Source of the DNA: Candidatus Yanofskybacteria bacterium RIFCSPLOWO2_02_FULL_45_18
GTDB taxonomy: Bacteria > Patescibacteriota > Minisyncoccia > 2-02-FULL-40-12 > GWA2-44-9
Assembly (NCBI GenBank): GCA_001795795.1
Contig: MGKV01000021.1
Location: 15,855-68,033, forward strand
Direction: 5' to 3'
Length of the DNA: 52,179 nucleotides
Positions 7,718 through 14,729 of this stretch are shown in pieces. The first letter of the stretch is position 1; each line of letters starts with the position of its first letter. The notes beneath the pieces were generated by a model that was not told the DNA's origin, did not search any database, and was given only the letters and a program-made list of their open reading frames with translations. A program made the translations under genes and the position numbers.

Positions 7718-7729
7718 GCTGTTACCAAT

Positions 7730-8110
7730 AGTGACATGGTGACAGCATGGTGACATCACCATGTCACCTGGTGCCAGACACCATGTCACCTGGTGCCAAA
7801 ATGGTGACACCAATGGTGACATGGTGCCAACTAGGTGACATCACCATGTCACCTAGTGCCAAATTGTCTGTCACCATGACACCAGACACACATTGCTGGG
7901 TTATTTAATAATCTAGGTATTGCTTTGTATTTGAGGGGCAAAGTGAACATGGTGACATGGTGACACCAATGGTGACATGGTGACCATGTCACCTGGTGCC
8001 AAGGTGTCTGTCACCAAGTGCCAGAGTTATCCACAGTGACACCTCTTGTATGTCACCATGTCATCTGTTATCATTTGGTTAGTACCTTTTTGCTGGTGAC
8101 GAGACACCAC
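7730..8110. repeat. Noncoding array of GGTGACA/TGTCACC direct and inverted repeats
   Basis: Perfect 26-bp direct repeat ATGGTGACACCAATGGTGACATGGTG at 7801-7826 and 7957-7982; hairpins 7749-7768, 7830-7857 (12-bp arms), 7971-7993 (10-bp arms). Confidence 0.9.
8027..8035 (+). promoter_or_regulatory. Consensus DnaA box TTATCCACA
   Basis: Exact match to the DnaA-box consensus, inside the repeat array. Confidence 0.5.
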
Positions 8111-8309
8111 GTGCGCCACTGGCCATTTCCTTTTTTGAGGCACCACCCACATAATACCATTTTGGTTTAGGGGTCGCGTGCCTCTTTTTTTTGTTTTGAT
8201 TTGACGATGGATGTTTGTTTAATTAATTTGAATAATAAATTTTACTGTGCTATGCTGTATATCCTAAGTTTGAAAATATATAATCTAATTTGGAGGGACA
8301 TTCAATTTT

Positions 8310-8678
8310 ATGGATAAAAATGAATTGAAAAAATTAAGAGAGGACTTGGTTAAAGAAAAAGCAACGGTTGAAGAAGCGTTAATGTCCACTGCTATAAAAA
8401 ATCCGATTGTTAAAGATTACTACGAACAACCGCGGGTTGAGGATATCGGCAGTTCGCCTGATGATACAGCCCTTGAAGCTGTGGATTTTGACCGCATGAT
8501 GGCCTTAAAAAATACGCAGGAACAGAGATTGCACGAGATTAATGAAACATTAGCCCAAATTGACAGCGGTGAATATGGCATATGTGTTAATTGTGCTTCC
8601 GGCATTGGGGCGGCTAGGTTGAAAGTTATACCTGCGGCTACTTTGTGCATTAGTTGTGCCCAGAAAACAGGAAGATAA
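8310..8678 (+). CDS. TraR/DksA-family zinc-finger protein
   Basis: LAQIDSGEYGICVNCASGIGAARLKVIPAATLCISCAQ. Confidence 0.88.
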   Translation: MDKNELKKLREDLVKEKATVEEALMSTAIKNPIVKDYYEQPRVEDIGSSPDDTALEAVDFDRMMALKNTQEQRLHEINETLAQIDSGEYGICVNCASGIGAARLKVIPAATLCISCAQKTGR

Positions 8679-8701
8679 CTCCTTGGAGGGAGGATTTTCT
8701 T

Positions 8702-10234
8702 TTGTCTATCCGTATTTTTTCGGCATCTATAAATGGTATTGATGCTCAAGCCATTGAAGTGGAAGTGGATTCTTCTCCCGGAATCCATTCTTTTAATATT
8801 GTTGGCTTGCCCGATAAAGCTGTTCAGGAATCCAAGGACCGTCTGGCTTCGGCAATAAAAAATAGCGGATTTTTGCCGCCTAACTCCAAAAACAAGAAGA
8901 TTACTATCAATCTTGCGCCGGCTGACATCAAAAAGGAGGGGCCGGCATACGATTTGCCCATAGCTATCGGCTATCTTCTTGAAACCGGCCAGATCAGGTT
9001 TGATGCTTCTAACCGCCTTTTCTTGGGCGAGTTATCTCTAGATGGTTCTTTGCGCCATGCCAATGGCGTGCTGGCCAGCGCTATTTTAGCAAAAAGAATG
9101 GGTTTTAATGAAATAATAATTCCGGCAGAGAATGCTGGAGAAGCGGCTGTAGTTGAAGAAATCGGGGCTATCGGCGCCAGAAGTATCGGCGAGGTTATCA
9201 GCCACCTTGACGGCACAAGAAGGATTGCTCCATTAAAAGCTGAATTTTTAGGAAAGATTCCTAATGTTCACGACAACTCCCTTTTGTTCATAAAAGGCCA
9301 GGAAACCGCCAAAAGAGCTTTGGTGATTGCCGCCGCTGGAGGCCACAATCTGCTTATGGGTGGCGCTCCCGGTACCGGCAAGACTCTTTTGGCTCGCGCC
9401 TTAAGCGAGATCTTGCCTCCCCTGTCTTTCGAAGAAGCTATTGAAGTTGCCAAAATTTATAGCGCCAGCGGTTTAACCAAAGATTCTTCATTGTCTTTCA
9501 GGCGGCCATTTAGAAATCCGCATCACACAACCTCGGCTGTGGCTATGGTTGGCGGAGGAACTTGGCCAAAACCGGGAGAAATAAGTTTGGCTCATCGGGG
9601 CGTGTTGTTTTTGGATGAATTTCCGGAATTTCCCAGAAATGTGCTGGAGAGTTTGCGTCAACCGCTTGAAGACGGACAAGTTACCATTTCGCGGGCTTCC
9701 GGTTCCGTCTCTTTGCCGGCTAAATTTATGCTTGTGGCGGCGATGAACCCTTGTCCTTGCGGAAACTATGGCGATTCGGTTAATGCTTGCATTTGCCCGA
9801 TGACTGCGGTTATGAATTACCGCAAGAAGATCTCCGGCCCGCTAATTGATAGAATAGATATTCAGGTTATGGTTCCGAGAGAAACGGTTTCTTCCGAAGA
9901 AAATGGCACTCTGCCTGAAAAAGTTGAGGAAATTAAGAAAAACATAACGTTAGCCAGACAAATTCAGGCGGAAAGATTTAAAAATTTGCCAATTTTTTGC
10001 AATGCGGAAATAAACCACAAGAATATAGACAAGTGTTGCAAATTAGAGAAAAGTGCGGAGAGCCTCCTAAGACACGCTATAAACGCGAAAGGCCTCTCTC
10101 TGCGGTCTTACCATAAAATTAAGAAAATCTCTCGCACAATCGCAGATTTAGAGCAATCAGAGCCAATTCAACAGCACCATGTCGCCGAAGCCCTCTCTTT
10201 GCGCATCAATGAAAAAATAACGGAGTTGTTTTGA
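8702..10234 (+). CDS. ComM/YifB-type Mg-chelatase-like AAA ATPase
   Basis: GIDAQAIEVEVDSSPGIHSFNIVGLPDKAVQESKDR; GAPGTGKTLLARAL; NPCPCGNYGD. TTG start after SD GGAGGGAGG. Confidence 0.93.
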   Translation: MSIRIFSASINGIDAQAIEVEVDSSPGIHSFNIVGLPDKAVQESKDRLASAIKNSGFLPPNSKNKKITINLAPADIKKEGPAYDLPIAIGYLLETGQIRFDASNRLFLGELSLDGSLRHANGVLASAILAKRMGFNEIIIPAENAGEAAVVEEIGAIGARSIGEVISHLDGTRRIAPLKAEFLGKIPNVHDNSLLFIKGQETAKRALVIAAAGGHNLLMGGAPGTGKTLLARALSEILPPLSFEEAIEVAKIYSASGLTKDSSLSFRRPFRNPHHTTSAVAMVGGGTWPKPGEISLAHRGVLFLDEFPEFPRNVLESLRQPLEDGQVTISRASGSVSLPAKFMLVAAMNPCPCGNYGDSVNACICPMTAVMNYRKKISGPLIDRIDIQVMVPRETVSSEENGTLPEKVEEIKKNITLARQIQAERFKNLPIFCNAEINHKNIDKCCKLEKSAESLLRHAINAKGLSLRSYHKIKKISRTIADLEQSEPIQQHHVAEALSLRINEKITELF

Positions 10235-11724: not shown

Positions 11725-12090
11725 ATGAATCGTTCCGATCTTGGCTACTTTGCCGAACACTATGTCGCACAATATCTGGAGGCGAAGGGATATGAAATCA
11801 TGGACCTAAATTTCCGGAAACCGTGGGGAGAGATTGATATTGTGGCTCAAAAAGAGGGGATTTTGGTTTTTGTGGAAGTGAAAGCCAGCAAACAAGCGAC
11901 AGTCGGCTTTGAGCCGGAGTTGAGGGCGGGGAGCGATAAAATGCGCAAAGTTGTCCGCACCGCCCGCACCTATCTTGCTTACCGTAAATATCCGCCGGAC
12001 AAGGAGTGGCAGGTTGATATTGTCTCACTGACGTTTGATAAAGATAGGGGAGTGGCCCAAATCAAGCATTTCAAGAATGTGGAAGTGTGA
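11725..12090 (+). CDS. YraN/UPF0102 family endonuclease-like protein
   Basis: GYFAEHYVAQYLEAKGYEIMDLNFRKPWGEIDIVAQKEGILVFVEVKAS. Confidence 0.92.
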   Translation: MNRSDLGYFAEHYVAQYLEAKGYEIMDLNFRKPWGEIDIVAQKEGILVFVEVKASKQATVGFEPELRAGSDKMRKVVRTARTYLAYRKYPPDKEWQVDIVSLTFDKDRGVAQIKHFKNVEV

Positions 12091-12123
12091 TTTTTGGGCT
12101 GTTTTGCGGGGTTTTTGGGACTA

Positions 12124-12152
12124 TTGACTGGGGGCTTGTTTCTTGGTATAAT
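12124..12152 (+). promoter_or_regulatory. Sigma70-type promoter TTGACT-N17-TATAAT
   Basis: -35 at 12124-12129, -10 at 12147-12152, 17-bp spacer. Confidence 0.75.
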
Positions 12153-12249
12153 AACAGATAACAATAGGCATTCGCTTTGGGCGCCTGTTGAGTACTCAAC
12201 AATTGAATTTTTTGGGTCCAGTCGACGGGCTGGGCTTGAGGAGGATCCC

Positions 12250-13050
12250 ATGTTTGAAAAGACAAGGACCGCGGTCCTCCTCGTTCTTGCCGTGCTGGTT
12301 TTTTCAGCACCCGCAGGGGCGGGGATGTTGGACATTGCGTCCAACAACCACCATGACCGGTACGGTGGTTATCGGCAGTACCGGCAACCCTACGGCTATG
12401 GCCAGCCGAGTATTTTAGACGAATGCTCGGCGGCTTTGGCTGATATTCCCTCAAAAGGGGAAAGGATAGCCAAAGCGGGAGTTGACGGCTTATCCGTCGG
12501 GTTCCTGACCAAAGGCCTGACGAAATCGGGCCGATGGGCGGCAGTTGCCGGCGGTTCTACCGCTCTCGTGGAAAGCATCATTATGCTGAAACGGGACGGA
12601 AACCGTCGCAAAGAGTTGCAAGCGGCATGCCTGCAACTCATGCGCGAGCAAGTCGCTCGCGAGCAACAAACCGAACCGGAACCGGACCGCCGCGAGGCGG
12701 ACCGAGAACGGGAAACCGAAAGGGAGTACCGTGAAGCCGAACCGGAATCAGAAATGATTTCGGTGAGGTTTCGAAACCGATTCGTGAAGAAGGAAGTTAC
12801 CGTCGTTATTCTTGGCGGGAACGCTCCTTCTCCGGTGACCTTGTCACCGGGCGAGTCAATAATCATCAGTGTGCCTCAAGGGAGTGGAGTAGAGGCACAC
12901 TATGTCATGACGATAGGTCATGACAAAAACGGAACATCCATTGATGTTCCGACAGTTTTGAAACCGGGTTTCGGAATATACTGGGTCAATGACCAGTATG
13001 AAATCCGCAATCCGTATACGGAAGGAGGCAAAAATGACGATAAGAATTAG
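12250..13050 (+). CDS. Hypothetical secreted/membrane protein; coding DNA tiled with inverted repeats
   Basis: SD GAGGAGG before ATG; signal peptide MFEKTRTAVLLVLAVLVFSAPAGAG; Arg/Glu-rich middle; no family recognised. Confidence 0.75.
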   Translation: MFEKTRTAVLLVLAVLVFSAPAGAGMLDIASNNHHDRYGGYRQYRQPYGYGQPSILDECSAALADIPSKGERIAKAGVDGLSVGFLTKGLTKSGRWAAVAGGSTALVESIIMLKRDGNRRKELQAACLQLMREQVAREQQTEPEPDRREADRERETEREYREAEPESEMISVRFRNRFVKKEVTVVILGGNAPSPVTLSPGESIIISVPQGSGVEAHYVMTIGHDKNGTSIDVPTVLKPGFGIYWVNDQYEIRNPYTEGGKNDDKN

Positions 13051-13723
13051 TCCGGTCGTTCTATTTTTGGTGGCGCTTGTCGCCGCCATTGTTCTAGATG
13101 TCTTATTTGTGCCGGCTCGGCTGGCGGCAGCTCTTTTGTGGGTGGTAATCCCAGCGTTTACGCTGGGTCTGCTCATCCACCTATGGATGAGGCCAGCGCC
13201 GACCTTGGCGCCGGGAACAACGGTAAGCTCCGCGGTTACCGTTCCGTATGTAAGCGGAGCGGTAACGCACAAGGTCCCGATACCCGGGACCAATCAAGAA
13301 TTTTTGTTCCGGCCGCCAACGAACGACCGTTGGCATCTGGGACGAAACATGGGCTACGGAATTTTAGTAGCCCTGACTGTTCTGTCCCTGGTGGGGGGTA
13401 TGGTGCATCTTGTTGATGTTTACTATGCTACTCCCGCCACCACGGCCACGGGGGAGCAACCGGCTCCCTTGCCACAACCCCAGCCAGCGGTTGCCGCAGG
13501 CCAGCATGATGGTGACACCGTCACCATCAACCAGCTGAAGCAGGATATTCAAATCCTGCAACAGCGGGTAAACCGTCCGTCCTCGGCGCCACCACATCCT
13601 CTAGTCGCAATTAATGTGACGGGGGGAACGGTGAAGGTGGCTCCGTCGACCCAGCTAGCGGTCAAGCCGGCCGAGACCAAGCCGGTTACCGCTAACCCGT
13701 GGTTGCTCCCCGAAAACCAGTAG
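13034..13723 (+). CDS. Hypothetical multi-TM protein with Pro-rich tail; coding DNA tiled with inverted repeats
   Basis: SD GAAGGAGG before ATG; overlaps the previous CDS by 17 nt (coupling); TM segments; no family recognised. Confidence 0.75.
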   Translation: MTIRISPVVLFLVALVAAIVLDVLFVPARLAAALLWVVIPAFTLGLLIHLWMRPAPTLAPGTTVSSAVTVPYVSGAVTHKVPIPGTNQEFLFRPPTNDRWHLGRNMGYGILVALTVLSLVGGMVHLVDVYYATPATTATGEQPAPLPQPQPAVAAGQHDGDTVTINQLKQDIQILQQRVNRPSSAPPHPLVAINVTGGTVKVAPSTQLAVKPAETKPVTANPWLLPENQ

Positions 13724-13743
13724 GGGAGCAACCACAACCACCC

Positions 13744-13781
13744 TGTCCTATACAATTGGCATATGCCAATTGTATAGGACA
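13744..13781. repeat. 38-bp perfect palindrome TGTCCTATACAATTGGCATATGCCAATTGTATAGGACA
   Basis: 19-bp arms, no loop. Confidence 0.95.
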
Positions 13782-13807
13782 CACTTTCGGAGCCAAGGAG
13801 GATAAAA

Positions 13808-13897
13808 ATGTGGCTCCACGCACGCTTAAATAAAGCGTGCTTTCTTTTTCCAGCATTAACTTTAAATCTGCTATGCCTAAAATTGTCGTTAAAATAG
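13808..13897 (+). CDS. Putative 29-aa micro-ORF (leader-peptide-like)
   Basis: SD AAGGAGG then ATG; MWLHARLNKACFLFPALTLNLLCLKLSLK; overlaps a terminator. Confidence 0.3.
   Translation: MWLHARLNKACFLFPALTLNLLCLKLSLK
13820..13849 (+). terminator. Rho-independent terminator of the hairpin-tiled operon
   Basis: GCACGCTT-AAATA-AAGCGTGC followed by TTTCTTTTT. Confidence 0.75.
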
Positions 13898-13987
13898 ATA
13901 ACACAACCATACTTCCGTGAAATATAAATCGTAGCAAAGGATTATGGCATAGCTTTAAGACAATTTGTATTCAAAGTTAGTGCTGGA
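13849..13987. mobile_element. MITE-like / foldback element with 19-bp imperfect terminal inverted repeats
   Basis: Left TCCAGCATTAACTTTAAAT; right end reverse complement TCCAGCACTAACTTTGAAT. Confidence 0.5.
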
Positions 13988-14044
13988 TTTTGCCCAAATT
14001 TTGTTTCCCATTTGCTTTAAGCGCCATCCTTGATTTATTGTAGC

Positions 14045-14094
14045 AGCACCTGTCCCCCACTTTCAGCAATTGCTGAAAGTGGGGGACAGGTGCT
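14045..14094. repeat. 50-bp perfect palindrome AGCACCTGTCCCCCACTTTCAGCAATTGCTGAAAGTGGGGGACAGGTGCT
   Basis: 25-bp arms, no loop. Confidence 0.97.
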
Positions 14095-14141
14095 ATTATG
14101 TTATTAATGTGCTAAATATTTGTTAAATAACGGTTTCGCTT

Positions 14142-14729
14142 ATGTCACGATCTAATATAAAAAATTCGTTTTCTTACAAATTATTAAAAGCTATAGCTGT
14201 TGGCGGAATGGTGATGGTGGCCGCTGGCAATCCATATTTCGGTTTGGGCGCTTTTAAGGCCATAAGAAAAGAGCTTAAACGAAAAAAGTGGCGACAATTT
14301 TATAAAGAACTTTGGAAATTAAAGCATCTTAAGAGGGTTAATGTTTCTTCAAGCCCGGACGGAACTTACGCGGTAGAAATTGCCCAAATGGGCAAGAGTA
14401 CACTTATAAAGTATGACCTAGATAATTTATCCATAAAGCCCATGCATAATTGGGACGGTTATTGGAGGCTTTTCTTTTTTGATATACCAGCTGATAAAAA
14501 AGGGAGACATTCGCTGTTGGCTAAGTTAAGGGAATTGGGTTTTGTTAAAGTGCAGAAAAGCTTATGGGCACATCCGTTTGAGTGTAGGGAAGAGCTTGCC
14601 GTAATATCAAAAGCATTTGAGGTAGAACCCTATGTGAAACATTGTTTAGCGTACGACTTTGACACTGATTGGAAACTTATAAAAGATTTTGAGAGAATAA
14701 ATGGAATAAAACTTAAAGATCGAAATTAG
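14142..14729 (+). CDS. PaaX-like protein with Cas2-like C-terminal domain
   Basis: WDGYWRLFFFDIPADKKGRHSLLAKLRELGFVKVQKSLWAHPFECREEL resembles the PaaX/Cas2-like ferredoxin fold; no cas1 or CRISPR array nearby. Confidence 0.65.
   Translation: MSRSNIKNSFSYKLLKAIAVGGMVMVAAGNPYFGLGAFKAIRKELKRKKWRQFYKELWKLKHLKRVNVSSSPDGTYAVEIAQMGKSTLIKYDLDNLSIKPMHNWDGYWRLFFFDIPADKKGRHSLLAKLRELGFVKVQKSLWAHPFECREELAVISKAFEVEPYVKHCLAYDFDTDWKLIKDFERINGIKLKDRN

Follow-up and report, generated by a model that had tools for sequence, protein, structure and literature searches.

Our analyses identify a two-gene operon (positions 12250-13723 of the window, the whole 52,179-nucleotide stretch of DNA analysed) whose coding sequence is tiled with perfect inverted repeats, in the genome of an uncultured, tiny member of the Patescibacteria. 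The hairpin density is confirmed, and the perfect repeats are the most conspicuous part of a wider excess of mRNA folding: 65% of the positions of the operon mRNA are predicted to be paired, with an MFE of -0.49 kcal/mol per nt. We consider it rather probable that the operon is strongly promoted and that selection on its mRNA, working mainly via synonymous codons, has brought nearly the entire message into short local hairpins.

An earlier note on this DNA had listed 23 inverted repeats, and all of them are present where it placed them; 22 of them, read inwards from the ends, pair perfectly over arms of 6-13 bp, the exception being 13534-13565, where a 4-bp outer stem surrounds a 7-bp stem at 13540-13559. 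With a repeat defined as a perfect inverted repeat with an arm of at least 7 bp and a loop of at most 20 nt, the region 12100-13860 holds 26, and 1727-bp windows over the operon contain up to 25 against a median of 3 across the whole window; for arms of at least 8 bp, the figures are 13 and 1. Shuffling of synonymous codons (n=300) removes most of these: 11 repeats were observed in gene 1 vs 1.6 +/- 1.2 expected (maximum 7) and 10 in gene 2 vs 1.1 +/- 0.9 (maximum 4), codon-shuffled copies carrying about 2.3 repeats per kb. The note's further remark, that this density was not seen in neighbouring genes, agrees with the 0-4.2 repeats per kb found in the 36 other window CDSs tested; equal density in shuffles and equal density in other genes, the two outcomes that it had named as speaking against it, were thus both looked for and neither was seen. 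Among 223 ORFs from 270 kb (43%) of the 627-kb host assembly, the operon genes rank first and second, by repeat density and by folding z alike.

Table 1. Sequence features of the operon and its flanks, in window coordinates
Feature	Position	Strand	Basis or remark
Sigma-70 promoter TTGACT-17-TATAAT, near consensus	12124..12152	+	sequence; counterpart upstream of gene 1 in 20/20 operons
5' UTR perfect palindrome TGTTGAGTACTCAACA	12186..12201	+	
Gene 1 Shine-Dalgarno GAGGAGG	12238..12244	+	sequence
Gene 1, 267 codons incl. stop	12250..13050	+	11 perfect repeats, 13.7 per kb
Gene 1 hairpin run	12265..12999	+	12265-12278, 12326-12346, 12346-12370, 12357-12384, 12613-12639, 12643-12661, 12832-12850, 12868-12901, 12903-12925, 12930-12951, 12978-12999
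Palindrome TCCGTATACGGA	13011..13022	+	abuts gene 2 Shine-Dalgarno
Gene 2 Shine-Dalgarno AAGGAGG	13022..13028	+	sequence, predicted fold; ~0.4 unpaired
Gene 2, 230 codons incl. stop	13034..13723	+	10 perfect repeats, 14.5 per kb
Gene 2 hairpin run	13150..13559	+	13150-13167, 13172-13191, 13219-13243, 13227-13260, 13235-13266, 13273-13291, 13315-13334, 13351-13373, 13507-13529, 13540-13559
13-bp hairpin across gene 2 stop codon	13699..13735	+	
3' UTR perfect palindrome, 38 bp	13744..13781	.	single copy in genome at tested stringency
Hairpin, loop holds AAGGAGG + ATG	13789..13817	+	sequence
Intrinsic-terminator-like hairpin GCACGCTT-AAATA-AAGCGTGC, then T-rich run	13820..13846	+	

The run of perfect repeats extends 3' of gene 2, with palindromes at 13744-13781 and 14047-14094. 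The latter, 48 bp long and perfect (GCACCTGTCCCCCACTTTCAGCAATTGCTGAAAGTGGGGGACAGGTGC), lies between the terminator and a PaaX-like gene, outside the transcript, and an imperfect inverted pair, CCAGCATTAACTTTAAAT ... ATTCAAAGTTAGTGCTGG, flanks an A+T-rich stretch at 13852-13987 and has a MITE-like look. REP or MITE palindromes were considered as a source of the repeats and rejected: the 13744-13781 and 14047 palindromes are single copy (searched in the host's own genome with at most two mismatches, the exception being one arm-like site on contig C1), and the coding stems all differ. The loop of the 13789-13817 hairpin, with its perfect Shine-Dalgarno and ATG, is the start of a possible 29-codon ORF (13808-13897) that reads through the terminator; no counterpart of this feature was seen after gene 2 in genome G002.

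The closest named PolA relatives of the host are mostly Candidatus Yanofskybacteria (Patescibacteria), in keeping with the earlier guess of a CPR origin. The operon occupies a conserved slot in the order UPF0102 - operon - TsaE - PolA, which is kept in nearly all sampled relatives (one assembly per species, the host genus being represented by one genome). We located the slot in 21 family genomes, and almost all of the intact intervals contain an operon of two genes with the same architecture. Gene 1 relatives are found in the slot or further downstream in sister families f3 and f4, and in f2, UPF0102 adjoins TsaE directly and the slot is empty. In the window, the gene preceding TsaE is the PaaX-like gene, with a Cas2-like domain (PF20803) at 14142-14729; among the genomes searched, only in G010 and G008 was a PaaX-like gene seen within the variable slot. 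The UPF0102-TsaE interval also collects other secreted genes (in G008, G018, G013, G021, G029 and G040), among them genes for small proteins with signal peptides adjacent to the operon (G008, G018) and ORFs of 750-820 aa (G013, G021), and in this respect it resembles a hotspot for exported genes.

The two products have recognizable architectures and diverge strongly in sequence. Gene 1 encodes a signal peptide, a helical region matching the Gly-zipper segment of its homologs and a C-terminal beta-domain, and the homologs share the signal peptide, a Gly-zipper-type segment and the beta-domain; gene 2 encodes membrane segments and a Pro-rich tail, as do its homologs, whose mutual homology is weaker than that of gene 1. 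In multiple alignments, identity to the window proteins is about 10-29% (also given as about 15-25%), and a search by peptide pattern in genome and viral collections returned no close homologs. The claim that the proteins belong to no known family holds for the window's own pair, for which Pfam, PHROGs and Rfam searches with the operon genes gave nothing reliable, but not for the gene 1 family as a whole: PF13441 is matched by 4 of its 19 members (best E 8e-7), though not by the window protein, and matches to PF13441 or PF13488 are limited to a few homologs; likewise, NCBIfam models match a few homologs and not the window protein. The AlphaFold model of the gene 1 product has a pLDDT of 70 and a pTM of 0.39; its C-terminal domain (window about 12754-13005) is modelled as a beta-sandwich that in Foldseek weakly resembles the beta-domains of pVHL (best E 4e-3, TM 0.2-0.4), which we did not count as evidence.

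We picked homologs of the operon genes via synteny and without regard to folding (34 genes from 19 other genomes), so they provide a test that is independent of the window and free of bias from the way in which the operon was first noticed. Folding was scored in 90-nt windows against a null that preserves the protein, the codons and the dinucleotides. By this measure, 35 of the 36 operon genes have a negative folding z, with a mean of -4.35 on the sense strand against -0.38 in 18 polA controls (p=7e-8, related genomes being taken as independent in the p-values of the family comparison); the sole non-negative gene is a 267-nt fragment, and the operon genes of the window's own genome reach -8.5 and -6.8. 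Compared over whole genes with synonymous shuffles, gene 1 has a z of -2.3 to -10.1 in 19/19 genomes and gene 2, whose orthology is uncertain in several of them, one of -1.3 to -11.2, with the polA controls at -3.0 to +1.4, all structures being predictions. Operon genes from sister families of the order score -5.2, -3.1, -4.5, -4.0 and -1.5; other secreted genes in the same slot lie between +0.8 and -2.2, and 49 E. coli genes under identical scoring have a mean of -0.94, the lowest value being -4.3. The lpp and ompA mRNAs of E. coli are abundant and long-lived; lpp was tried as a precedent for the folding measure and rejected, showing no excess (lpp -1.3, ompA -1.8).

A few other genes of the host stand out in the same scans. 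At L070 6732-8986 (G000, the window's own genome, contig C17), two tandem ORFs without a Pfam match and with good promoters have folding z of -5.1 and -10.3, and the second (7727-8986) is without a homolog in 27 family genomes; L071 6375-7088 encodes a secreted orphan and has 11.2 repeats per kb, and on the minus strand L054 8948-9628 encodes an ankyrin-repeat protein with an N-terminal membrane segment (7.3 repeats per kb, z -5.5).

Perfect, unique and unconserved stems in a fast-evolving gene are also what a mutational process might leave behind, and the earlier note had proposed a local template-switching mutator. We regard it as unlikely that template switching of DNA within imperfect inverted repeats, promoted by intense transcription and perfecting palindromes in a change-tolerant gene, accounts for the pattern with mRNA folding as a by-product. 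The perfection of quasi-palindromes is known from highly transcribed yeast DNA without RNase H2 (PMC3820800), and template switching creates and repairs RNA hairpins (PMC8794818); the operon's promoter is predicted to be very strong, its proteins evolve fast, and two of the perfect palindromes lie beyond the coding sequence. The yeast case, however, depends on the loss of RNase H2, whereas genes of the RNase HII and RNase HI families are found in the host genome and nearly all relatives, and RNase H loss as the driver was rejected. Nor are other strongly promoted genes enriched, though their proteins are more constrained.

A further point is the asymmetry between the strands. A fold made at the DNA level should show no strand preference, G-T and A-C mismatches being interchanged between the two, yet the sense strand folds better than the antisense in 29 of 36 operon genes (p=4e-5), a bias that depends on the G-U pairs of the energy model, and in only 9 of the 18 polA controls (p=0.73). 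The folding excess also outlives the repeats themselves: in windows free of perfect repeats, with real and shuffled sequences filtered alike, the sense z is -3.7 and the antisense -2.4 (p=1.4e-4), and operons nearly without perfect repeats are still folded, e.g., gene 1 of G002 with a z of -5.1. Furthermore, the homologous operons hold 260 repeats with arms of at least 6 bp against 145 after synonymous shuffling and 120 after shuffling of the codon order, which means that the repeat excess lies mostly in synonymous choice and that the protein sequence contributes little. The mutator as first proposed does not alone predict the strand bias but may add perfect stems in the host species. There, gene 1 shows almost no strand bias in whole-length folding (-8.38 vs -8.37) and gene 2 none in repeat-free windows; the modest bias combined with the highest stem perfection makes a mutational contribution plausible in this genome. 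Interruptions of perfect stems, at G-U 4 and A-C 0 in the host genome, are too few to discriminate, and elsewhere, counted with 4+3 stems, they are near even (G-U 12 vs A-C 13).

Selection on the message could act on particular structures or on the amount of structure. The predicted stems of one species were mapped onto its nearest homolog, with a null that redraws only the differing codons; in this helix-by-helix test of stem-specific covariation on seven homolog pairs, stem preservation did not rise above the polA controls, an equal mild excess being seen in both. The covariation check that the earlier note had called for thus fails for specific stems, which are not kept beyond controls, while global foldedness is kept. 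The fast-changing counterparts are equally folded with different hairpins, which suggests that foldedness itself is maintained and that the conserved trait is the amount of folding and not any one fold. Conserved promoter strength and foldedness, in the face of proteins diverging to 15-25% identity, could also point to a role of the transcript or its fragments as RNA (a scaffold, a sponge or an exported or packaged RNA), the proteins being secondary or dual, and a lack of conserved stems would fit a need for bulk duplex RNA. We find such a role quite improbable, however, as both frames retain a Shine-Dalgarno, a signal peptide or membrane segments and recognizable homology, the start windows are relatively open, and Rfam gave no match reaching the gathering score in 11900-14200.

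The promoter is the second trait that follows the operon. In all 20 operons, TATAAT is exact, and the site is within two mismatches of TTGACA-17-TATAAT, the spacer being nearly always 17 nt; taking the best site within 160 nt upstream in both sets alike, a comparable promoter precedes 10% of 214 ORFs of the same genome, a loose baseline since many ORFs lie inside operons and need no promoter of their own. A general link between promoter strength and folding was rejected genome-wide (Spearman -0.05), and the S8 peptidase gene, whose promoter is just as good, has a folding z of -1.0: strong promoters elsewhere come without folding, and high transcription alone is an insufficient reason for it. 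Other folded orphan genes with strong promoters, small in number, are L070:6732, L070:7727 and L071:6375.

Around the starts, the messages are more open. Mean openness of the start region is 0.42-0.49 for gene 1 and 0.50-0.55 for gene 2, against about 0.31-0.37 in the body, with a roughly flat profile of 0.43-0.50 in 31 own-genome controls. This holds as an average over the family, and gene 1 of the window is an exception: its Shine-Dalgarno is predicted to pair with TCCTCCTC in codons 9-11 (mean unpaired 0.08-0.13), and such burial would lower translation. The same is predicted in G019, and as there are also hairpins right next to the start of gene 2 and the two products are destined for export or the membrane, the folding could serve the control or pacing of their translation, through a buried gene 1 start and slow elongation, instead of stability. 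We think this very unlikely as the main explanation: start burial is not general (mean openness is at least 0.2 in 18/20 gene 1 starts), the excess is spread over whole genes with no fixed sites, and other secreted genes of the slot or genome lack it. Among the explanations put forward at the outset, selection for a structured mRNA is therefore favoured, the excess being synonymous, biased towards the sense strand, resistant to removal of the repeats, relaxed on average at the starts and recurrent in syntenic homologs; for a single-stranded DNA form, packaging or transfer, we found no evidence.

Several known systems resemble the operon in part. Genome-scale ordered RNA structure (GORS) of RNA viruses is a pervasive folding of coding RNA without conserved individual stems, and the operon RNA is likewise folded throughout with unconserved stems; unlike a viral RNA genome, the operon is chromosomal and bacterial, sits in the same slot in about 20 genomes and codes for exported and membrane proteins. 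Folding of coding sequences is under a general, weak selection that increases in highly expressed genes (DeltaLFE; PMC7063772), and the operon shares with it an excess achieved by synonymous choice that on average weakens near starts. The DeltaLFE signal, however, is a weak genome-wide average and is weak in host-dependent species, whereas here a single operon lies many standard deviations outside its own genome and the trait follows it through the family. Designed "superfolder" mRNAs (PMC8499941) similarly keep the protein and use synonymous codons to minimize unpaired bases; the operon differs in being natural and evolved, and its stability is our inference from sequence. The mitochondrial coding palindromes of Nematomorpha (PMC6649704) are also many perfect inverted repeats within functional coding sequences, but they reach 284 bp and lie in genes of conserved proteins, in contrast to stems of 7-13 bp in bacterial genes for fast-evolving proteins, with a wider folding excess around the stems. 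On the protein side, matches of gene 1 homologs to Gly-zipper models recall the Gly-zipper envelope proteins (Pfam PF13441, PF13488, PF05433). The Caulobacter two-protein bacteriocin CdzC/CdzD (PMC5380434), also two genes with exported products, is a lead only: the Cdz proteins, of 84-86 aa, are encoded next to genes for type I secretion and for immunity. The slot showed no partners of that kind, and the gene 1 product carries a signal peptide and a C-terminal beta-domain.

Taken together, the best reading is that a strongly promoted operon for envelope proteins is under selection to keep its message folded, the function of the folding being conjectural. With its near-consensus promoter, the transcript would be abundant; low unpaired probability predicts slower RNA hydrolysis (PMC8499941), and a folded mRNA body would probably slow ribonuclease attack, giving a long-lived, abundant message, and perhaps also pace the translation of the exported proteins. 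The product would be an abundant pair of envelope or surface proteins, a secreted Gly-zipper partner and a membrane, Pro-rich partner. Where selection favours low overall accessibility over any single structure, stems can come and go while the protein diverges, and template switching, a one-step source of new or perfected inverted repeats, may supply the unusually perfect stems of the host.

What has been known of selection on mRNA folding in bacteria is a faint average over whole genomes. The effect in this operon lies many standard deviations outside its genome, extends across a family and comes with a control gene in every genome, which makes the operon a natural test bed for what folding of coding regions does, be it stability, translation pacing or an RNA function. 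It tells selection on the degree of folding apart from selection on one particular fold, and it is a case where template-switch mutation and selection may act together. We put forward more tentatively, and as a possibility on the unlikely side, that it is a lineage-wide natural superfolder message, in which foldedness and promoter are conserved while the protein sequence and every stem turn over. If so, superfolding would be a strategy for one or a few very long-lived messages of a slow-growing, ultra-small episymbiont, other folded orphans of the genome, for example L070:7727-8986 (z -10), would be further members of this class, and such messages may be carried through dormancy or attachment.
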